Below are positions 12,805 through 32,382 of a stretch of 64,000 bases of DNA, piece after piece. Both the position numbers and the translations under genes were made by a program. The notes under the pieces are model-generated. The model made no database searches. It saw only the letters and a list, made by a program, of their open reading frames with translations, and was not told the origin of the DNA. The stretch is from Planctomycetia bacterium (GTDB lineage: Bacteria > Planctomycetota > Planctomycetia > Pirellulales > Thermoguttaceae): NCBI GenBank assembly GCA_030527185.1, contig JAUNBF010000009.1, positions 1 to 64,000 of the forward strand, read 5' to 3'. Positions within the stretch are counted from its first letter, which is position 1; the number at the start of each line of letters is the position of its first letter.

Positions 12805-13710
12805 TTATTCCGAAAAAACCGTTCCGTCGTTGCACGCTGCCAGGCACTTGAAAACGCCCAATTCCATCGAATTTCCCAAAAACGAAACGCTCCCATCCCC
12901 ACGAGCAAAATTCACCCCTCCCGGATGTTCGCTCTGAAATGGAAGATAGCCGAAAAGAACGCCGTTTCGCCGTTCCACCACGATATTGAACCGATACTGA
13001 TCGACCACCTTGAAAGAATAGTAGTGCCGATCGGCAGGCGAATTGGAGCCATAAACCCAGTGCCGAAGATTCCCCATCGGCCAGGCATAGCTCCCCGACC
13101 TGTCCGCCTGAATCCACTCTCCGATCAGAAGCGTCTGGCTCAATCCATCGCTCACATCCGCCGAACAAACCGATTTTGCCCACTGGAAAAGACCGTTTTG
13201 GGGAATATCGCCCACGCCGGACTTTTCCACCGCAATCCCCTCGAAAGTCGCTCCTCCCACCCCCTGATAATGCGTCCGAAAGCCGTATTCATGCCCACGA
13301 CTGGCCGTGTACAATTTCGGCTGCGAGCAAGACGGACACTGGTACATCGGCATGGGAAGGGTCAGCAAGTCACTCAACGGATTCAATAAATACGAAGCTC
13401 TTTTCGTAAAATCGATCTGATCGTAAACCGCCTGCTGTTCGATATGGGGAAGGATCGTTGCCATCCAACCAAAATTGTCCGCCCCGACAATGTTGACAAA
13501 ATTTTGATCATTCACCCCCATCGGAAACCGATCTTCATGAAGCGTCATGTAGTTATGACAGCCCAGCGCATTTTGACGCAAGTGGTTCTGGCACTGCATG
13601 TTCCGTGCCGCCTCCCGTGCCTGCTGGACGGCGGGAAGGAGTAGCCCGACGAGCATTCCGATAATCGCAATGACGACCAGAAGCTCCACCAACGTAAACG
13701 CTTTTTTCAT
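12805..13710 (-). CDS. Pseudopilin-like DUF1559 protein
   Basis: 301 residues. The N-terminus is a class III signal: a short leader, then FTLVELLVVIAIIGMLVG, which a prepilin peptidase would cut and methylate before the Phe. The rest is the DUF1559 domain found in large paralogous families in Planctomycetota, ending in a conserved HPGGVNFARGDGSV stretch. Such proteins are thought to form surface or secretion-linked pseudopilins. Its ATG overlaps the TGA of the upstream PEP-CTERM gene (ATGA), and its ribosome binding site lies inside that gene's last codons, so the two are translationally coupled. Confidence 0.9.
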   Translation of the reverse strand: MKKAFTLVELLVVIAIIGMLVGLLLPAVQQAREAARNMQCQNHLRQNALGCHNYMTLHEDRFPMGVNDQNFVNIVGADNFGWMATILPHIEQQAVYDQIDFTKRASYLLNPLSDLLTLPMPMYQCPSCSQPKLYTASRGHEYGFRTHYQGVGGATFEGIAVEKSGVGDIPQNGLFQWAKSVCSADVSDGLSQTLLIGEWIQADRSGSYAWPMGNLRHWVYGSNSPADRHYYSFKVVDQYRFNIVVERRNGVLFGYLPFQSEHPGGVNFARGDGSVSFLGNSMELGVFKCLAACNDGTVFSE

Positions 13711-15328
13711 GGCTCCCTCCTTTTCTTAAAGAATCTTCCCCACGCCAGAAATCCCAGAATCCCTCCGGCCAACAGCCACATCGAAGCTGGTTCGGGAACG
13801 GCCTGCCAACCGATTCCCGTGACTTGAAAATTCGCGCCATAAAACTGGTTGAAGTCGGAAAAATCCCAGGCCAGCCAGGAACCTGAATTCAGCCCGGTCA
13901 GAAGAATCCCACCATTTTCCGTCAGACTTGCCCCGACATCGTAATACGTCCGCAGACTCTCATCCGCATCGTTCATCCACAGAATCAAGTCGTCCAGCCC
14001 CACATCGGAAGAAGTATTTTCGCTGAAATAAAACGCGATCGCCCAATTCTCCTCCGACGGCACGTCCAACAATTCCACAAATCCTTTCGCCGAAGGGGTT
14101 TGCGACAAATCGAGAAAAGCCTTTCCGACGAATGCCAATTCCCCTTTTTTCTGATTGGAATCCAGCGTCGCCACATATTCTTTCGTTCCGTTCCCGCTGA
14201 GTGTCCAGAGACTGGAGTCGAGAATGCTGCCGTTATCCGCAACATTTCGTACCACAGTGCCCGATTTCAAAAGAACATGCTGTGAATTTTCCAGAATCGT
14301 TACGCCGGACGCAATTCCCAAGTCGATATTTTGCCGCCACGCAATATCTCCTTGGGCTGTAATCGTAGAAATTCCACCGTCGGCAAACATAAAATGGGTC
14401 GTGGTTGTAGAACCGGCCTGGATAGCGATATAATTACCTGCCTGAGCTGAAAGATCGGTTCCGAGAAACGTGATTTCGTTCGTGCCCGTCCCCGAATTCC
14501 AGTTTCCCGTCGTTTTCAGGCTCCCTCCAGTAATGACCAACTGCGATGTTCGGCCAGTCCTTGCCATGTAAAAATCCCCCCCGACGTTCACGTTCCCCCC
14601 CGACATCAGGAATGTGGCCGAATCGGGCGTTCCTGTTTGAGTACTGTCGTCGGTGCCTGCCAGAGAAAAGGTTTTCGTCTGGATCGTTCCGCCCGAAAGT
14701 ACCAAAGTTCCGTTGGCTCGCTCGGTACTGTTTCCTTTGGCTACGATCAGATGGTTGCTCTGAACTTCTCCCCCCGTCATCTCCATTCTGCCAACATCGG
14801 CTTGCGAAATATTGAGAAAATCGCTCGCTTTTAAGAGTCCGCCTTCCACCAGAACTTTCCCACGGGAGCCAAGCCCACTGGTGATGCCAATCTGGTTGAA
14901 TGTCACGGTTCCGTTTTTCAGATGAAAAAGATTGTTGGAGGATTCGTTACGTCCGACAACCAACTTTCCCGTCGATTCGACCGTCCCGCCATCGACCAGG
15001 AACGTGCTGGGATTCGCTCCATTCGCAAGTCCAACATACCAATAACCCGACCCGGCCATTTTTCCACCCAAAACCGATACCAGACCGTTGGCAGTCAAGT
15101 CTGTCGCGACGCTCACTTCCCCAGAAGAAATGGTGTACGTATCTGAAGAGCGTACCGTGTTACTTCCCACATCCGGCACGGCACTTCCGTTGATGTACCA
15201 GTGAGCAGAATCCCACGCATTCTTCGATCCATCCCAGACAAATTCGCTCCCGCAAGAATCTTCTAAACTACCCCCCCCCCGCAAATTAACACTCCTAGAA
15301 ACACCTTCAACCACAGTTTCGTTTTCAT
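13707..15328 (-). CDS. Exported repeat protein with PEP-CTERM signal; frame interrupted by a G10 run
   Basis: About 540 residues if read through the homopolymer. ATG 15328 begins an export signal (MKTKLWLKVFLGVLICG) that runs into ten consecutive G on the coding strand (15271-15280). As written this frame stops at once; 11 or 8 G would join it to the long frame continuing SLEDSCGSEFVWDG. The body consists of beta-helix, autotransporter-like repeats (GGTVESTGKLVVGR type), and it ends with VPEPASMWLLAGGILGFL plus a basic tail, an exosortase (PEP-CTERM) signal. A clear promoter lies upstream. Either a phase-variable gene in the off state or a homopolymer sequencing error. Confidence 0.8.
15271..15280. 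repeat. Homopolymer C10 (G10 on the coding strand)
   Basis: It falls at codons 17-20 of the gene starting at 15328. The 13 bases after the run on the plus strand (GCAAATTAACACT) are identical to those after the C11 run at 25295-25305. Confidence 0.9.
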
Positions 15329-23839: not shown

Positions 23840-23875
23840 TTCCTTTCCACCGCATGGGAAAAATTTCTCCCGACC

Positions 23876-23904
23876 TTGTTTTTCCCAGGGGCACGTGCTA
23901 TACT
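23876..23904 (+). promoter_or_regulatory. Promoter of the XylR-type regulator
   Basis: TTGTTT at 23876-23881, a 17-bp spacer and TATACT at 23899-23904. It lies inside an in-frame upstream extension of the regulator and so supports the start at 23953. Confidence 0.55.
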
Positions 23905-23952
23905 CCATTACATACAGGTTCCCCCAAAAATAAAAAAACTCCCACAAACCTC

Positions 23953-25131
23953 ATGAAGCCGGTAATTCCCCACATCACCGTCCTTTTGGAGACTTCCCGA
24001 CAGGCCTCTCGCCGACGTTTTCGCGGAATTTTGCGGTACGTCCGTCTCCACCAGCCCTGGTGCCTGAATTTTGTGGTCGGGGGCGTTCAGGAGTTGGCAT
24101 TGCCCGATTCTCAGGAGGTGTGCGACGGAATCATCACCACCACGCTGAATCTGGAGATGGTACGGCAACTTCTTACGCAGAAATGTCCGATTGTCCTGCT
24201 CGACCCGGAGAAGGGGCTGCGGGAATATCCGATCCTCCGGCAATTTTCTCACGTTTCGCTCGATAACGCGGCGGTGGGCAGGATGGGAGCGGAATATTTC
24301 CTGCAAAATAACTACCAGCATTTTGCCTTTGTGGAGCCTGCCGAGTCGTGGAACTGGGCGGTACAGCGAAAGAAAGCGTTTGTCGAAACACTACGGAAAG
24401 AGGGAGCCACCTGCCACATTTACGCATCTTCCCCGCAACGAAATACGTCGCCGGAAAAGGAGCGGACGTTTCTGGGAAACTGGCTGCAAACCCTCCCCAC
24501 ACCCTTGGCGGTGCTGGGAGCCAGCGATATTGAGGGTCGTCAGGTGATCGACGCCTGCCTTGCCTTGGGGAAAGCGGTTCCGTACGAAGTGGCGGTTTTG
24601 GGGGTGGGAGACGACGATTTCATCTGCGAATCGTGCTTCCCCTCCCTCTCCAGCATTGCGGTGGAATGGCAGGAAGCGGGTTATCTGGCCGCCTCGTTTC
24701 TTCATGCTCACATGACACGGCCGCACCAGAAAAAACAGTCCGCCACATACGCTCCCACACAAATCATCCACCGCATTTCCACCGAAAAAGCACTCGTGAC
24801 CGACCAGTTAATCATCCCGATTCTCGAACGAATTCGTCTGGCCAATGGAATGAATCTCCGCGTCAACGAGTTGGCACGCGAATTCCACGTCTCCCGACAG
24901 TGGCTCGACAAGCGTTTCAAACAACTTCTCGGCCACACCGTTTACGACGAAGTGCAAAAACGCCGTCTGGAAAAAATTCGGACGCTCATTGCCGAAACGC
25001 ACCTCTCCTTCAACCAAATCGCCACCCTTTGCGGCTTTGAGAATGGAAATTACCTGCGAAACCTCTTCAAAAAAGCGTTCGGCATGACAATGACGGAATA
25101 TCGCGAAAAATCCCGTTCCAAAATTCTTTGA
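23953..25131 (+). CDS. XylR-type transcriptional regulator (LacI-like sensor, AraC DNA-binding domain)
   Basis: 392 residues. The N-terminal part (about 1-275) has the periplasmic-binding-protein fold used by XylR, opening PHITVLLETSRQASRRRFRG and including GASDIEGRQVIDACLALG and EVAVLGVGDDD. The C-terminal 100 residues are two AraC helix-turn-helix units (LRVNELAREFHVSRQWLDKR and LSFNQIATLCGFENGNY). Such proteins usually activate sugar-use genes on binding a sugar. It is divergent from the glycan cluster and is the obvious candidate to control it. No strong Shine-Dalgarno precedes the start. Confidence 0.85.
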   Translation: MKPVIPHITVLLETSRQASRRRFRGILRYVRLHQPWCLNFVVGGVQELALPDSQEVCDGIITTTLNLEMVRQLLTQKCPIVLLDPEKGLREYPILRQFSHVSLDNAAVGRMGAEYFLQNNYQHFAFVEPAESWNWAVQRKKAFVETLRKEGATCHIYASSPQRNTSPEKERTFLGNWLQTLPTPLAVLGASDIEGRQVIDACLALGKAVPYEVAVLGVGDDDFICESCFPSLSSIAVEWQEAGYLAASFLHAHMTRPHQKKQSATYAPTQIIHRISTEKALVTDQLIIPILERIRLANGMNLRVNELAREFHVSRQWLDKRFKQLLGHTVYDEVQKRRLEKIRTLIAETHLSFNQIATLCGFENGNYLRNLFKKAFGMTMTEYREKSRSKIL

Positions 25132-25162: not shown

Positions 25163-25199
25163 ATGTCTCATTATGGCAATATTTTGGCGAAAAAAGGCA
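25163..25199 (+). repeat. 37-bp promoter-proximal repeat, copy 1
   Basis: 36 of 37 positions are identical to 29545-29581. It ends right before the -35 box (TTGACA, 25201) of a LamG/pseudopilin gene. The core TTTTGGCGAAAAAAGGCA is A-rich. Confidence 0.85.
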
Positions 25200-25200
25200 G

Positions 25201-25229
25201 TTGACACCATTATTCACGGAGAGTAAACT
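25201..25229 (+). promoter_or_regulatory. Promoter of the first LamG/pseudopilin gene
   Basis: TTGACA at 25201-25206, a 17-bp spacer and TAAACT at 25224-25229. The leader to ATG 25274 is about 40 nt. Confidence 0.7.
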
Positions 25230-25273: not shown

Positions 25274-28200
25274 ATGGGAAAATCGTCTATTCTGCCCCCC
25301 CCCCCGCAAATTAACACTTGGGGTGTTTTTTTGCTCCATTTTGGGCCTGGGAATTGGAATCTCTCCGGTTTGGGGAGAAAAAGTCGCCACCTGGTCGCTG
25401 GACGGGAATGTTGCTCTTTCCCGTGGCTCTGGGAGTTGGGGAACCTGGAGTGACGGAGAAACCTTCGGAACGACCGGCGGGGCAACTTTTGTTGCCGATG
25501 CCGTTTTGGGAACGGAGGTTCTGCAGATAACTTCCGGCGGGGTGAAATTGGGGACGATGCCCGCGCTGGTCTCTTCCGGGGAAAACGCCTCGCATTTCAG
25601 CGTTTCGTTTTGGGTTTCCAATAGCTACACCGGGGAAAGAAGTCCGGTTATCTGGGGAAATCGTTATGGTGCGGAAAATAATTTTCTCAAGTTGACACCT
25701 TCCGCCGTCAGTTACTACACCTCGTCCGCGAACGACAATTTCAGCTATCCTGCCGCACTGCCGCAAAATCAATGGTCATTTTACACGTTCGTCAAAGAGG
25801 ATGGGAAAATGACCGTTTATCTCAATGGTCGGGAATATGCCACACAAACGATTCAGAACGTTTCTGAGTTACCCGCTCTACCAGTTTATTTGGGTGGAGA
25901 CCCCGGTTCTACCAACGAACAATGGCAGGGGAAACTCAGCCAGGTCACGATTGACAACACCGCATTTTCCCCGGTCGAAGTTCGCCAGCAAATGCAATCT
26001 GCACAGCGAACCATCCTGCTGAATCAGCCCAATACCACCTTTTCCATCGTGGACGATTTTTCCTCGGCACCTTCCGACAATCAATGGAAATCGAAGACGT
26101 TTTCCAACTCGTCGTTCCAAGATGCCGGGGACAACTCGATTTCCATCTCCACCACTTCCGGCCAACTCCAGATTTCCGGCACACCTTCGCAACAACATTG
26201 GTATGGAGCTGGATTGGAGTCGGTATCTTCCTACGACGCTTCCGAAAGTGAAATCATCCTCACCATCGACCGCGTTTCGCTGGAAGGTTCCCAGGCACGC
26301 TCGACATTTTCGCTCTTGAGTACCACCAGCAACGAGTTTGTCCGCATGTCGCAAAATACCTACCATACGTTGGAAAACAACTCCGAATATGGCCTGTGGG
26401 AAATCAATTTTCAATCGGGCAAAGAAACTTACAATTCCGCTTCCAATCATGGCCTTTACAACACAAATCCGCTCTACGCAAGCGATTACGGCTTTCATCA
26501 GATGACGTTCAAGCATGACGGAACGCACGTCTGGACGTATGTGGACGGATTCCTGCAAAGTGTGGTGGAAGTCGGCTTCACGGAATTTCAACTGATGGTT
26601 TCTGCCCAGGCACGTTCCGCAAACACTTCTGTCAACGCGATTTACGACAATCTGACACTCTCCCGACGCAACGATGCTCTGAAAATTTCCCAACCGACGG
26701 AGACCTTTTCCGCCGATTTTGACCGGAGCCGATGGACCGCTCATCGTGGTTCGTTCGACAGCCCCACATTGACTTACACCGATTCTCCCAATGGCTACGT
26801 TTCCCGAATGAGAGACCTTTCCATCCTCCAGATTACCGATGGCGAAGTCGCCTTCAACGAGACGTTTTCACTGGGAAATTTGGAGGTTTTGGCCGTCACA
26901 CGCGATAGTATGGCGATAAGCCAGGGGAGTACCGTGGGGCTTGGTTCCAACTTTGCCACTTCCACGACGCGTGGAGGCCAAAGCGGTCTGAAACTCTTCT
27001 CCAGTGAGGATACTTATCTGGCTGTGGTGCAAAACTCGATTACGGGGGGATGGTTTTTGGAGTGGGATGGGCTGGAACTGTCGCGAAATGGCATTTCCGC
27101 TCTGCAAGGTTCGGAAGGGTTGGGGAGTACCGACATGCTGACGCACCAATTGGTGCTGGAACTTCTTGGCTGGGAAGGAGAAGTGGCTACCCTGCAACTC
27201 TCCATTGACCAGAACATCTCCGAAACGTTCACGATTTCTCAATGGACGCAGGAAATTTCCGCCATGCTCGTTTCTCTCGGTACTCAGTCCGGCTTCGATG
27301 ATTTTTACCTCCAAACCGCGTCACCTCCTGAAGTGCCGGAACCGGGAAGCGTGGTTTTGCTGTTGCTGGGAGCGGCTTTCCTTTTCCTGTGGAGGTATCC
27401 AGCTTCCTCTCCGGGAAAAACCCTCCGAAAAGGGTTTACGCTGGTGGAACTTCTGGTCGTCATTGCAATTATCGGAATGCTGGTCGGACTTCTGCTCCCT
27501 GCCGTGCAACAGGCTCGGGAAGCGGCTCGTCGAATGCAGTGTAGCAACCACGTCCGGCAAATTCTTCTGGCCGCCCATCAGTATGCCGCGCAAAATCGGG
27601 AGTATTTTCCCTACGCCACCGGGACGAAAAATTTTGGTTCCCATCTGGATGGTTCGGGAGACTACGGTTTTTTCACCATCATCCTTCCGTACATGGAGCA
27701 GCAGGCACTGTACGACCTGATCGACTGGAATGTTCATTGCGACTCGACCGATACGCAGACGCGAACGGTGCGTAATACCGTCATTTCTACGTATGTTTGT
27801 CCTTCTTTGGGAGAAACGCCGCTCAACACCATTCCCCAATATGCCGGGGCGTTGGTCTCCTATGCGGGAATCCACGGCGTGATTCGCAGCGCGACCGACA
27901 TTGCCCAACGTGCGGACTGGGAGCCGGAGTATTCTCCCACTCCCGCATCGCAAATTTTGACACGGCAAGTGGGAAATCTGGCACTCAACGGCATGATGCT
28001 CTGGGGGGAGAGAGTCCACGGTGGAACCATCCGCGACGGGTTGAGCAACACTTTTTATTTGGGAGATTTTACCGGACACCTGATTGAAAAAAACTACCCC
28101 TACGGCATGCGTCCCTGGATCATGGGAGCCAACTACAATTCCAACGGCGGGATTTACGCTTCCAAAGGGGTTCGCGGAAAAATCAACGATACCGATTCGT

Positions 28201-28370
28201 CGCTGATTTACAACAACTGCCCGCTCTCCAGTTTCCATCCCGGCGGGATTCATCTGGGGCGTGCCGACGGAAGTGTGGCCTTTGTCTCCGACGGTCTCGA
28301 CGAACGGATTTACAAGGCTCTCTGCACGCGAAATGGACAGGAAATCATCCCTGTTCAGGACGGTCTTTGA
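25274..28370 (+). CDS. Exported LamG protein with PEP-CTERM signal fused to a DUF1559 pseudopilin; frame interrupted by a C11 run
   Basis: About 1030 residues if read through. ATG 25274 has GGAGA upstream; seven codons later comes C11 (25295-25305). As written the frame ends soon after; 10 or 13 C would join it to a perfect signal peptide (RKLTLGVFFCSILGLGIG, then SPVWG-EK). The next roughly 190 residues are a LamG/concanavalin domain, followed by two further beta-sandwich regions. Then comes VPEPGSVVLLLLGAAFLFLW, a PEP-CTERM signal, a short basic loop, and a prepilin leader with FTLVELLVVIAIIG and a full DUF1559 domain. The long frame is also open from GTG 25323. Regulated by the shared 37-bp element; paralogue of the gene at 29665. 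Confidence 0.8.
25295..25305. repeat. Homopolymer C11
   Basis: It falls at codons 8-11 of the gene starting at 25274. It is followed by the same 13 bases as the C10 run at 15271-15280. Confidence 0.9.
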
Positions 28371-28371
28371 A

Positions 28372-29553
28372 TCACCCATCCTGAAGGCGGTACTGGCGGG
28401 GCGTTTTTCCATGAGATTCGCGGAAGGCGCGGATAAAATGTTCCACCAGAGGATACCCTACCTGGCTGCCGACATTTTCTATCGAAAGATTCGTCTCCCG
28501 CAGAAGAAGCCGCGCACGTTCCATCCGAACGCGGATGATTTCCTCCTCCGGCGAACGACGAAGATATTCCTGAAACCACCGCAGAAGCGTCCGACGGGAG
28601 ACGCAGAGGTGGTCCGCGACTTCCTGCACAGAAATGCGTTGTGTGGCATTTTCCCGAATGAACCGCAGCGCCAGCGTAAAATCGGGATGATCCACCGCAA
28701 TGGCATCGGTGGACTGGCGCGTCACAACACCCACTGGCGGAATCCAGATGGGGAGTTGGGGAAGTGGATTTCCCCGCATTTTCTCATCGAGCAGTTGGGC
28801 GGCCTGGTATCCCGTCTGGACTCCGTGAGGGTCGATACTGGAAAGTGTCGGGGAGGTCGATTCACACAAAATCGTATTGTCCCCCACCCCCAACACCGCC
28901 ACCTCATCCGGGACGGCAATTCCCTCCATCTGGCAGAGATTCAGCAGAAAAATCGCGTTCACGTCACGCGGACAAAAAATGCCTGCCGGTTTGGGAAGTC
29001 CGTGTAGCCAGTCGATGATTTTTCTCTCCTGATTCGGGCGAAAATTCGGGGCATGAACCGACTCCGCCTGCCGTAGCGAAAAAGGGGAAATGTGCGCGTC
29101 GTAACCCCATTCCCGCACCGTCCGGACATATTCTCGGCGAAAACCTCGCGACCACCACGTCTGTCCGAAGCTGAACCAGGCGTAGTGCTGAAAACCCCGT
29201 TCCTGAAAATGTTCCGCCGCCAGCCGCCCCATCTGACGCTCGTCGCTGAGGACTTCCGAAGGGCATTCCCCATGCTCTCCCAGCAACTCCACCATGGGAA
29301 TCTGGAACTGGCTCAACTGTTCGGAAACTTCCGATTTGGCACTGCGGATAATCATCCCCTCCCCCTGCCAGGAACGAATCCAGGACGGGACTTTTTTAAT
29401 CGGCCCCTGATCGACCAGAAACAACACCCAATTCCCCTGTTCTTTGGCGTAACGGGAGATTCCCCGCACGATTTCCAGCGAATAGGAGAACGTCGTCTCC
29501 ATCAAAATCAGAATCCGTTTTCGATTCTGGGAGGACTTTCCAAGATGTCTCAT
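28372..29553 (-). CDS. XylR-type transcriptional regulator
   Basis: 393 residues. It has the same architecture as its neighbour at 23953: a LacI-like sensor (ILILMETTFSYSLEIVRGIS, AGIFCPRDVNAIFLLNLC, EVAVLGVGDNTILCE) and a C-terminal pair of AraC helix-turn-helix units (ISVQEVADHLCVSRRTLLRW, LSIENVGSQVGYP). The ATG lies inside the 37-bp repeat shared with the LamG promoter at 25163, and no Shine-Dalgarno is visible, so initiation may be leaderless or the true start may differ. It is divergent from the LamG gene at 29665, and its 3' end abuts the LamG gene to its left. Confidence 0.85.
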   Translation of the reverse strand: MRHLGKSSQNRKRILILMETTFSYSLEIVRGISRYAKEQGNWVLFLVDQGPIKKVPSWIRSWQGEGMIIRSAKSEVSEQLSQFQIPMVELLGEHGECPSEVLSDERQMGRLAAEHFQERGFQHYAWFSFGQTWWSRGFRREYVRTVREWGYDAHISPFSLRQAESVHAPNFRPNQERKIIDWLHGLPKPAGIFCPRDVNAIFLLNLCQMEGIAVPDEVAVLGVGDNTILCESTSPTLSSIDPHGVQTGYQAAQLLDEKMRGNPLPQLPIWIPPVGVVTRQSTDAIAVDHPDFTLALRFIRENATQRISVQEVADHLCVSRRTLLRWFQEYLRRSPEEEIIRVRMERARLLLRETNLSIENVGSQVGYPLVEHFIRAFRESHGKTPRQYRLQDG

Positions 29554-29581
29554 TATGGCAACATTTTGGCGAAAAAAGGCA
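29545..29581 (+). repeat. 37-bp promoter-proximal repeat, copy 2
   Basis: One mismatch to 25163-25199. It overlaps the first codons of the minus-strand regulator and ends just before the -35 box of the plus-strand LamG gene, so it could serve both. Confidence 0.85.
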
Positions 29582-29582
29582 A

Positions 29583-29611
29583 TTGATTTCCGTGTATATC
29601 TGTATTATAAT
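29583..29611 (+). promoter_or_regulatory. Promoter of the second LamG gene
   Basis: TTGATT at 29583-29588, a 17-bp spacer and a consensus TATAAT at 29606-29611. Confidence 0.75.
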
Positions 29612-29664
29612 GAAAGCTCCCTTGAAAAGAAAGGGGTAGGTGCTGTCAAATGGAGAACTCGATC

Positions 29665-32382
29665 ATGAAGAAGAATGTTTTTTGGCTTTGGGGATACCTT
29701 TGGTTGGGTATTTTCTGGGGAAATTCCCATCTTCAGGCAGAAATTGTAGGACAATGGACGCTGGCGGGAAATGCCCAAATTTCTCAACCAACAGACACGG
29801 GAAACTGGAGCAATCTGACAAGTGGAACGGCATGGGGAACGAATCTTGCCTATGTGTCGGACGAGGTGTTGGGAACGAAAGTTTTGGAAATCGGAGGAAA
29901 TTCAGGTATTTTGGCAGGAAAAACGGCAGCCATCCAGGGAACCGGAACTTCCACCACCGCAGAAACCCATTTCTCCATCTCGTTTTGGGTCAACAGTTCT
30001 GCCAATGCGGCCAATGGAACGGTGATGGTGGGAAATCGGTATCTGGAAGATGGTTCCAACAATTTCATCAAATTAACCAATTCTCTGGCTGGTTATTATC
30101 GAGGTTCCACTTCCGAAACGCTCCGTTTTTCGGAAAATCTTCCGGCAGAAACGTGGCTTCACTACACTTTTGTCAAATCGGATGGAAACATGGCGGTTTA
30201 TGTCAACGGGAAACCGTATGCTGAGGGAAAGGTCTCGTTGAATCTCAGCGCCATGCCGTTTTGTTTCGGGGGAGATTCTGTTAACAACACCAATGAAGAC
30301 TGGCAGGGAAAACTCAGCAACGTCACCGTTTACAATACCGCCCTTTCCGCAGGGGAGGTTCGGCATTTGGCAAATCAGGCTCGGACGACGATTTTGACGA
30401 ATCAAGACGTACCGGGTTTTCGGGTTTGGGAAGATTTTTCGTCGCCGGAAATCGATTCCGCAAAATGGACGGTCAAGAATTTCGGAACGGGTTCCAGTAG
30501 TGCGGGTGGTCTGCCCAACACCAACGTTTCCAACATTGCCGCGTCGGTGCAGGATGGGGAATTGACGTTGAGCGGGAGCGTCACCGCCAATTACTGGCAG
30601 GGAAAGACGCTGGAATCGACGGAGGTTTTCGACGCTTCGCAACAGGAAATTACCGTGACGGTGGATCGGGTTTCCCTTTCAGCAACCGGGACGGCAGGGC
30701 GTTCGAGTCTGTGGTTTTACAACGCGGAAGGGGATGATGGGCATTTCGTGCAGTTGTCCCAGAACACATACCAAAATCAGAGTACCCGCTCGTGGGAGCT
30801 GAATTATTACACCGACACGGAAAATTATCAGGAAAATGTCGGTTGGCGAAGTGCGGCGGACGCGGACAAAACCGATTACGGCTACCACCAGATGACGATG
30901 AAGCACGACGGCGAGAAGGTCTGGACCTACATCGACGGCCAATTGCAAAATGTTGTGGAGGTCGATTTCCAAACGTTTCGACTCTTGCTGACGGGACAGG
31001 CACGTGCGGCAGGGGATACCGTGAACGCGGTTTTTGACAACGTTTCTATTGCCACTCGAACCTCCGCTTTGCCGATCGTTCAACCGACGGAAGATTTTTC
31101 GTCCGAGATTGCCATTGGCACCGATTGGATTCGCGCGAATCAGAATCCGGTCGGCGTACTCCAGAAAACGTACTACGTTGGCAGTGGTATCGACACACAG
31201 TCCAAAAATCTGGGGATTTTGCAATTGACCGACAACCATCTGCGTTACGCCACACCATTTTCGCTGAATCAGCTTATTTTGGCGGTCGATCGGGATTCGC
31301 TGGCAACTCTGGCGGAAACGCCGTTGACGGGTGCGGAAAGTGGTCTTCAATTGTGGTCGGATGAGGATACTTATCTGACCATTTTGCAAAATTCCAATAC
31401 GGGGAATTGGGCACTGGCGTGGAAAGGAATTTCGCTGGATTGGGAGGAGAACGGTTTCACCACTTCCGGCGAGGAAATTCTCGGGGCGACCGATTTCTTC
31501 ACGCACCAGATCGTTCTGGAAGCGTTGGGGCTGGAAGGGGAGACCGTTACCATGCAACTTTCCATCGACGGCATTTTTTCCAAAACGTTCGCCATCCAAA
31601 ATTGGACGGACGATATTTACGCGGTACTCTCTTCCGGCGGCTGGCACTGGGACTGGGTTGGTGATCCCGATCGGGGGTATGGTCCGTCGCAACCCGGCTC
31701 GTGGTGCTACCAGATTTTGCCGTTTCTGGAGCAGATGGCGTTGTACAACCTCGGTTCCGATGGTCTGCCGGACGATTGTTCTTCCAGTATCCAACTCGCA
31801 GGTGCCGCCACGTGCAATCAGACACCGCTGGGCGTTTTTTACTGTCCCTCCCGACGCGCGGTTCAGAATTATCCTTGCAGAAACAGCTTCATTCCCAGGA
31901 ATTGCCAGTCGCTCACCGAGTGTGCCAAAGCCGATTATGCCACGAATCATGGAGATCGAGCCGGGATTCTCTTTCGCCACAGTGCCATCATGTTGGGGGA
32001 GATTCGCGACGGCCTTTCCAACACGTATCTGTTGGGCGAAAAGGCGATGAATCCACAACACTACACCACGGGCGACTGCGGTGGCGACAACGAAACCCTT
32101 TACGGCGGGGCGGGGGCGGATGTTATGCGTTCGACCTATTCCGTCCCCAATCAGGAGGATAGCAGCACGGCCAACAACACCAACCGTTTTTTCCGTCCCA
32201 TGCGGGACAAAGAAGGTTTGGAAATGTCGCGGACGTTTGGAAGTTGCCACTCCGGTGCGTGGGGCATGGCTATGTGCGACGGTTCCGTTCACCGGGTTGC
32301 TTACGCGATAGATTCTGAAATACACCGAAATCTTGGGCATCGTAGGGATGGTCAAGTAGTTTCATTACCTCCGTTACGTTGA
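29665..32382 (+). CDS. Exported LamG protein joined to a DUF1559 C-terminal domain
   Basis: 905 residues from ATG 29665 (GGAGAA upstream), with a signal peptide ending at LQA-EI. It is a paralogue of the protein at 25274 over the LamG and following beta-sandwich regions (for example GKLSNVTVYNTALSAGEVR against GKLSQVTIDNTAFSPVEVR). The difference is at about residue 655: after NWTDDIYAVLSSGG the sequence passes directly into the middle of DUF1559 (WHWDWVGDPDRGYG). The PEP-CTERM signal and the whole prepilin leader are missing, yet the frame stays open. There is no homopolymer run at its start. With both sorting signals lost, the product is predicted to be secreted rather than anchored. Confidence 0.85.
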   Translation: MKKNVFWLWGYLWLGIFWGNSHLQAEIVGQWTLAGNAQISQPTDTGNWSNLTSGTAWGTNLAYVSDEVLGTKVLEIGGNSGILAGKTAAIQGTGTSTTAETHFSISFWVNSSANAANGTVMVGNRYLEDGSNNFIKLTNSLAGYYRGSTSETLRFSENLPAETWLHYTFVKSDGNMAVYVNGKPYAEGKVSLNLSAMPFCFGGDSVNNTNEDWQGKLSNVTVYNTALSAGEVRHLANQARTTILTNQDVPGFRVWEDFSSPEIDSAKWTVKNFGTGSSSAGGLPNTNVSNIAASVQDGELTLSGSVTANYWQGKTLESTEVFDASQQEITVTVDRVSLSATGTAGRSSLWFYNAEGDDGHFVQLSQNTYQNQSTRSWELNYYTDTENYQENVGWRSAADADKTDYGYHQMTMKHDGEKVWTYIDGQLQNVVEVDFQTFRLLLTGQARAAGDTVNAVFDNVSIATRTSALPIVQPTEDFSSEIAIGTDWIRANQNPVGVLQKTYYVGSGIDTQSKNLGILQLTDNHLRYATPFSLNQLILAVDRDSLATLAETPLTGAESGLQLWSDEDTYLTILQNSNTGNWALAWKGISLDWEENGFTTSGEEILGATDFFTHQIVLEALGLEGETVTMQLSIDGIFSKTFAIQNWTDDIYAVLSSGGWHWDWVGDPDRGYGPSQPGSWCYQILPFLEQMALYNLGSDGLPDDCSSSIQLAGAATCNQTPLGVFYCPSRRAVQNYPCRNSFIPRNCQSLTECAKADYATNHGDRAGILFRHSAIMLGEIRDGLSNTYLLGEKAMNPQHYTTGDCGGDNETLYGGAGADVMRSTYSVPNQEDSSTANNTNRFFRPMRDKEGLEMSRTFGSCHSGAWGMAMCDGSVHRVAYAIDSEIHRNLGHRRDGQVVSLPPLR

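Follow-up and report, generated by a model that had tools for sequence, protein, structure and literature searches.

In the window, meaning the whole 64,000-nt stretch of Planctomycetia bacterium DNA analyzed here, the gene p2 joins a LamG module directly and in frame to the inner core of a DUF1559 protein, and carries neither the PEP-CTERM segment nor the prepilin helix that lie between these domains in the comparison gene p1. p2 is very probably a real gene, and is a variant assembled from known domains. What it chiefly offers is evidence that PEP-CTERM cargo belongs with DUF1559 prepilins. The features of p2 are:

29650 to 32382, + strand: p2, a gene that fuses LamG to DUF1559, with PEP-CTERM and prepilin helix missing (frame, Pfam/NCBIfam, BLASTP, hydropathy)
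29665 to 29739, + strand: putative Sec signal peptide, MKKNVFWLWGYLWLGIFWGNSHLQA (by-eye reading of the sequence)
29926 to 30360, + strand: Laminin_G_3 (PF13385), residues 93-237 (Pfam)
31633 to 31647, + strand: junction TCC GGC GGC TGG CAC, where LamG homology stops at G664 (31641) and the DUF1559 core starts (BLASTP, alignments, k-mers)
31642 to 32379, + strand: DUF1559 (PF07596) core of the canonical subfamily, with an H-X9-DG motif read by eye at its end (Pfam, tree, conserved columns)

The p2 frame is open throughout and encodes 910 amino acids, with ATG 29665 as the likely start, given the signal peptide. The latter is visible by eye, with LQA|E as a plausible cleavage site, and its hydrophobic core scored below 1.6 on a crude Kyte-Doolittle hydropathy scan. 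Laminin_G_3 was matched with 64.3 bits (Pfam cut-off 27.6) and SBP_bac_10/DUF1559 with 96.6 bits (cut-off 23.3), the latter over profile positions 49-268 only; positions 1-48, the prepilin helix, are missing. No PEP-CTERM match was found in p2 with either Pfam or NCBIfam profiles, neither PF07963 (N_methyl) nor TIGR02532 was matched, both being present in p1, and no 19-residue segment reached 1.6 when the whole protein was scanned (Kyte-Doolittle). The protein lacks the [GA]FTLVE cleavage/methylation motif with hydrophobic helix that defines a type IV prepilin, as well as the C-terminal PEP motif, hydrophobic helix and basic cluster of a PEP-CTERM protein. The H-X9-DG motif was read by eye (H867...D877-G878), and the TIGR04294 profile was unreported for p2 at E values up to 0.1.

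For comparison, the following features of p1 and its surroundings are needed:

25323 to 28370, + strand: p1, LamG - PEP-CTERM - basic loop - prepilin helix - DUF1559 in one frame (frame, Pfam/NCBIfam)
25295 to 25305, + strand: C11 tract, its flanks conserved, lying after ATG 25274 and before the part of p1 that is in frame; p2 has none (sequence)
25163 to 25204 and 29545 to 29586, + strand: 42-nt sequence upstream of p1 and p2, identical at 40 of 42 positions (sequence comparison)

All four of Laminin_G_3, PEP-CTERM, N_methyl and DUF1559 are present in p1 (Pfam), the PEP-CTERM match falling under the Pfam cut-off (19.1 versus 20.7 bits) and over that of NCBIfam (16.8 versus 16). Its hydrophobic segments lie at residues 671-689 (PEP-CTERM) and 707-725 (prepilin; Kyte-Doolittle). 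A previous reading of the window, made from the sequence only, had placed this gene at 25274; ATG 25274 is out of frame with the remainder because the tract is C11, and the in-frame start is GTG 25323. The 42-nt sequence ahead of both genes is a probable shared promoter/operator. The copy at 29545-29586 runs into the start codon of a XylR/AraC-type regulator gene in divergent orientation (28372-29553, - strand), and a similar regulator (23854-25131, + strand) precedes p1.

BLASTP of p2 against p1 returned a single alignment over p2 residues 19-664, with 41% identity (44% in other comparisons of the two), and beyond residue 664 the only similarity to p1 is a 25% match within the DUF1559 core. 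The join lies at 31641/31642 and reads LSSGG|WHWDWVGDPDRGYG. At this position, several LamG paralogues read LFSTGTxAYAGFDNF...VPEP and DUF1559 proteins read PSGGW. Since S662 and G664 are compatible with both parents (LamG 'LFSTG', DUF1559 'PSGGW'), the true breakpoint could be up to about 9 nt leftward. Microhomology at the join amounts to a few nucleotides at most, for which the parents would be needed as proof. What the sequence-only reading had described is borne out: p2 parallels p1 up to G664 and continues in frame as inner DUF1559 (BLASTP; Pfam from position 49), the PEP-CTERM signal, loop and prepilin helix are gone with the frame left open (Pfam, NCBIfam, hydropathy), and p2 is without the homopolymer.

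That reading had further explained p2 as p1 with an in-frame deletion, which does not hold. In a FastTree of DUF1559 cores (170 rows), the p2 core falls in a large canonical clade, its nearest rows being 50-53% identical, and the p1 core is only 24% identical to it and far off in the tree, as are three of the other fused genes, L015, L018 and L109. Because the DUF1559 subfamily differs, p2 as p1 minus a segment was ruled out. At C75, a LamG paralogue terminates in PEP-CTERM, and a canonical DUF1559 prepilin gene (YPSGGWDDNWTGDPDCGFG) comes next in an overlapping frame; the LamG paralogues at C60 and, in the sister genome G001, at G001:C48 also carry PEP-CTERM, with canonical DUF1559 genes downstream. 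Such a pair, a LamG gene with another, canonical DUF1559 partner, is the likelier parent of p2; the alternative is recombination of two genes or with another DUF1559 copy. The LamG-paired DUF1559 genes are not the closest to the p2 core (C75 ranks about 50th, at 45% identity), and no parent copy was identified among the 170 tree rows (nearest about 50%).

Among 148 DUF1559 matches in the window's genome (G000), only that of p2 starts mid-profile with neither a contig end nor an N-terminal piece beside it. Several candidates for a second such gene were rejected: the matches at C60:12 and C69:12 start mid-profile at contig starts, those at C90, C172, C25, C59 and C123 have an N-terminal DUF1559 piece next door, and that at C105 is a DUF1559-type segment without a prepilin motif. 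The sequence-only reading had proposed a search for the same junction in other genomes, and none turned up. No LamG module with the p2 join was found in 147 relatives or in 396 genomes of the order (overlapping sets), 17 of the 396 having a match to the LamG module at 1e-10, and the other long LamG modules examined (p1, C60, C75, G001:C88, G006:C2 and the partial G001:C48) all have PEP-CTERM. A scan of a wider contig collection with the p1/p2 LamG alignment gave 132 pattern matches, of which none was confirmed. Scanning that collection for p2-type cores yielded 78 loci with 81 core frames; a prepilin helix is present in 78 of the 81 (76 by regular expression, with GFTLVD and GFTLVN variants by eye), and the other three are cut by contig ends, such that none of the 78 assessable cores lacks the helix. 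The p2 join is so far unique.

The p2 core appears well preserved. Beyond the junction, 55 columns are conserved in 85% or more of 103 canonical cores; p2 keeps 53 of these, equal to the median of the rows, indicating that the core is undecayed. An AlphaFold model of the p2 core without helix alpha-1, for which 29 related cores were supplied, had an overall pLDDT of 66.6, with blocks reaching about 75-91 along much of the core and values under 50 in loops and likewise in the LamG tail ahead of it. A complete DUF1559 protein from the window was modeled as one long N-terminal helix (residues 3-53) followed by the core. A fold search of both models against the PDB gave no match at E values up to 0.001, and a sequence search against the PDB matched DUF1559 to pilins by the helix only, the remainder being without a solved structure. 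Loss of the whole of alpha-1 may weaken the p2 fold. p2 is known from one metagenome-type assembly, and no orthologue was found that would show selection on the fused state. It is conceivable, if unlikely, that p2 is a recent non-functional relic in which the sorting of both proteins was destroyed and the frame is open by chance and youth, a reading consistent with its occurrence in a single genome, the loss of alpha-1 and the absence of the C-tract element found at many PEP-CTERM gene starts. Against it stand 910 codons without a stop, the retained core columns, the preservation of frame through the join, and the upstream sequence common to p2 and p1.

The two gene families that meet in p2 are closely associated across the genome. 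The overlapping pair in the window serves as an example:

13707 to 15314, - strand: PEP-CTERM gene of the overlapping pair, with a C10 tract at 15271 (+ strand) (frame, sequence)
12805 to 13710, - strand: DUF1559 prepilin gene of the pair, joined by an ATGA overlap (frame, hydropathy, census)

By independent placement of profiles, 69 of 127 PEP-CTERM matches in G000 are followed by a same-strand DUF1559 match no more than 300 nt away, as compared to about 0.7 expected from random placement. The reverse order, with PEP-CTERM downstream of DUF1559, was seen 0 times, an unfair control as the PEP-CTERM motif lies at the far gene end, and opposite-strand pairs also numbered 0, a weak control. A regular-expression census covered the loci of the 148 DUF1559 matches with about five exceptions (C116 twice, C71:34497, C6:25448 and C69:12). 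It returned 132 prepilin motifs, 6 fused in frame to an upstream PEP-CTERM, 75 with a nearby PEP-CTERM gene and 51 with neither; a stricter rerun gave 5 fusions, the frameshifted L104 being dropped. In the 75 unfused pairs, the PEP-CTERM gene ends between -17 and +455 nt from the prepilin motif (within 150 nt in 63), and in 25 the nearest ATG overlaps or abuts the upstream stop, 16 of them by a 4-nt ATGA overlap. In all six fusions, the loop between the two helices is 10-21 residues long and includes 4-11 basic residues but no more than one acidic residue. The three arrangements that the sequence-only reading had made out, namely the overlapping pair (15314-12805), the fused p1 and the signal-less p2, do exist, and the first two recur genome-wide, with 25 overlapping or abutting starts and 6 fusions among the 132 motifs. 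Single matches were found in G000 for an exosortase (C110, 163 bits) and for a prepilin peptidase (C173, 36.7 bits). Pairing is present outside this genome but weaker: 12 of 32 motifs are paired in the sister species, with 0 fusions, and 2 of 32 in other genera. In the wider contig collection, whose 78 loci come largely from gut Thermoguttaceae and related MAGs, 26 loci hold 27 pairs.

These arrangements can be set against known systems. The PEP-CTERM motif, helix and basic cluster of the PEP-CTERM/exosortase system are likewise found in p1, the overlapping pair and the C60 and C75 LamG paralogues, and an exosortase is encoded, while the signal is absent from p2. According to passages of Haft et al. 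2006 (PMC1569441), PEP-CTERM genes mostly form single-gene operons and their motif almost invariably lies close to the C-terminus; in contrast to those passages, many PEP-CTERM genes here precede a DUF1559 gene, and the motif is internal in the six fusions. The p2 LamG module is common to p1, C60, C75 and three sister-species genes, as in LamG/ConA-like lectin-type surface proteins (PF13385), but the other modules continue into PEP-CTERM, whereas that of p2 continues into a DUF1559 core. DUF1559 proteins occur in dozens of copies per planctomycete genome, and we know of no role for them. While the C-terminal part of p2 keeps the canonical blocks of these planctomycete DUF1559/SBP_bac_10 prepilin-like proteins, it does not carry their N_methyl helix. 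Pilin and geopilin N-terminal helices in the PDB match complete DUF1559 proteins over the first 25-60 residues, the part that p2 is without. Among the open-access papers searched, none was found that mentions both DUF1559 and PEP-CTERM, or PEP-CTERM, prepilins and Planctomycetes together.

In an in-frame fusion such as p1, the PEP-CTERM helix and the prepilin helix would form a membrane hairpin around the short basic loop. As the loop is basic, the positive-inside rule would place it in the cytoplasm, with the cargo and the DUF1559 core both outside. The prepilin peptidase could cut the fused pre-protein on the loop side and the exosortase at the PEP side, yielding two products. The p2 gene may have arisen when a LamG cargo and a canonical DUF1559 partner were joined by an illegitimate deletion or a recombination that took out the hairpin only, and because both domains would already lie on the outer face, the join would keep the topology. 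Sec would then export a single soluble LamG-DUF1559 protein, which neither prepilin peptidase nor exosortase should recognize. The domain order, the loss, the open frame and the intact core of p2 are observed, as are the genome-wide pairing, the fusions and the occurrence of both enzyme families, while the export, topology, release and function of p2 are what we infer from this scheme. Overall, it is fairly probable that p2 is genuine and encodes a LamG-DUF1559 chimera that is exported and unanchored and has lost nothing but the hairpin, and the sequence-only prediction of an unanchored product agrees with the loss of both segments. By fusion logic, the cargo and the DUF1559 core would be working partners. 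The joining of the outer domains in p2 with loss of the hairpin, together with the fusions and the 4-nt overlaps, points toward PEP-CTERM cargo and DUF1559 prepilins being physical partners, which makes the roles of both families testable.

A working p2 fusion might instead stay bound to the cell, either because its N-terminal signal helix is left uncleaved or because it docks on other DUF1559 prepilins or on glycans. DUF1559 partners are numerous in this genome and LamG-type domains commonly bind glycans, but a second hydrophobic anchor is absent and LQA|E offers a plausible cleavage site, leaving this outcome rather improbable. Of 132 DUF1559 genes in G000, 128 have a 21-mer in common with another, mostly within the first 120 nt that encode the prepilin helix. 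Such near-identical DNA probably lends itself to recombination between modules and is likely to break contigs. That two loci were wrongly joined in this fragmented assembly of 174 contigs, with its 148 paralogous DUF1559 matches and with no independent copy of p2 in the wider contig collection, is very unlikely, since the repeat on which an assembler might go astray lies in the prepilin helix, and a wrong join there would have left in place the helix that p2 lacks, the join is in frame, and no k-mer of 18 nt or more over the junction recurs (16 nt being the longest tested size that did, in loci that take in the 148 matches with about five exceptions). A repeat-driven assembly collapse between paralogues, named by the sequence-only reading as what would overturn it, was rejected on this indirect test of k-mer recurrence.

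The C11 tract of p1 belongs to a larger set. G000 contains 149 C/G runs of 9 or more; those in the window are only at 15271, 25295, 35314, 41877 and 63917, and none lies in p2, which is without the frame-switching simple repeat expected of a phase-variable gene. The tract census took in 99 of the 149 tracts, 79 of the 127 PEP-CTERM matches and 89 DUF1559 matches (including C172, outside the contigs listed). Among the matches listed, 49 of the 79 PEP-CTERM genes on contigs C1-C106 have a tract at the 5' end of the frame (read on the coding strand, 19 are C runs and 30 are G runs); a tract lies within 200 nt upstream of 15 of the 89 DUF1559 matches, and the two classes make up 64 of the 99 tracts. 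The tract sits within a conserved element of about 30 bp, roughly CTATTTTA-C10/11-NN-CTTTAACA, in both orientations and with runs of C9-13, the window's tracts at 15271, 25295 and 63917 among them. An upstream ATG is in the signal-peptide frame at L261, L277 and L281 and out of frame at p1, L254, L265 and L291, which looks like frame switching. The conserved flanks in both orientations suggest a further role at the DNA level, and the elements possibly serve genome-wide phase variation or recombination. A similar element is present in 2 of 46 sister-species loci, including that of the G001 LamG gene (L067), and in 0 of 62 loci from other genera. In part of a report on Akkermansia (PMC3048395), PEP-CTERM proteins and homopolymer tracts are both described, unlinked.

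A broader proposal is put forward tentatively, as a possibility that is doubtful at present: PEP-CTERM cargo and DUF1559 prepilin could be halves of one planctomycete surface module, made as an overlapping pair or as a hairpin pre-protein cut by both enzymes, switched by conserved C10-11 elements at the 5' ends and reshuffled via near-identical prepilin-helix DNA, with p2 as a fixed secreted version free of switch, repeat and sorting signals.

Other unusual frames were seen in the same genome. At L094:1428-5492 (C60), a 1355-aa frame runs from one PEP-CTERM protein, with its motif internal at residue 637, into a second one, a LamG PEP-CTERM protein joined at its signal peptide without an intervening stop. 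DUF1559 matches are split at L104 (C172; 1-58 + 51-267), L105 (C59; 1-96 + 96-267) and L107 (C25; 1-68 + 128-268), which suggests frameshifted or deleted copies. At L111 (C174:164879-166729), two adjoining divergent DUF1559 matches are found, each assigned a 694-aa open frame in the genome search, whereas reading of the locus gave two separate frames.
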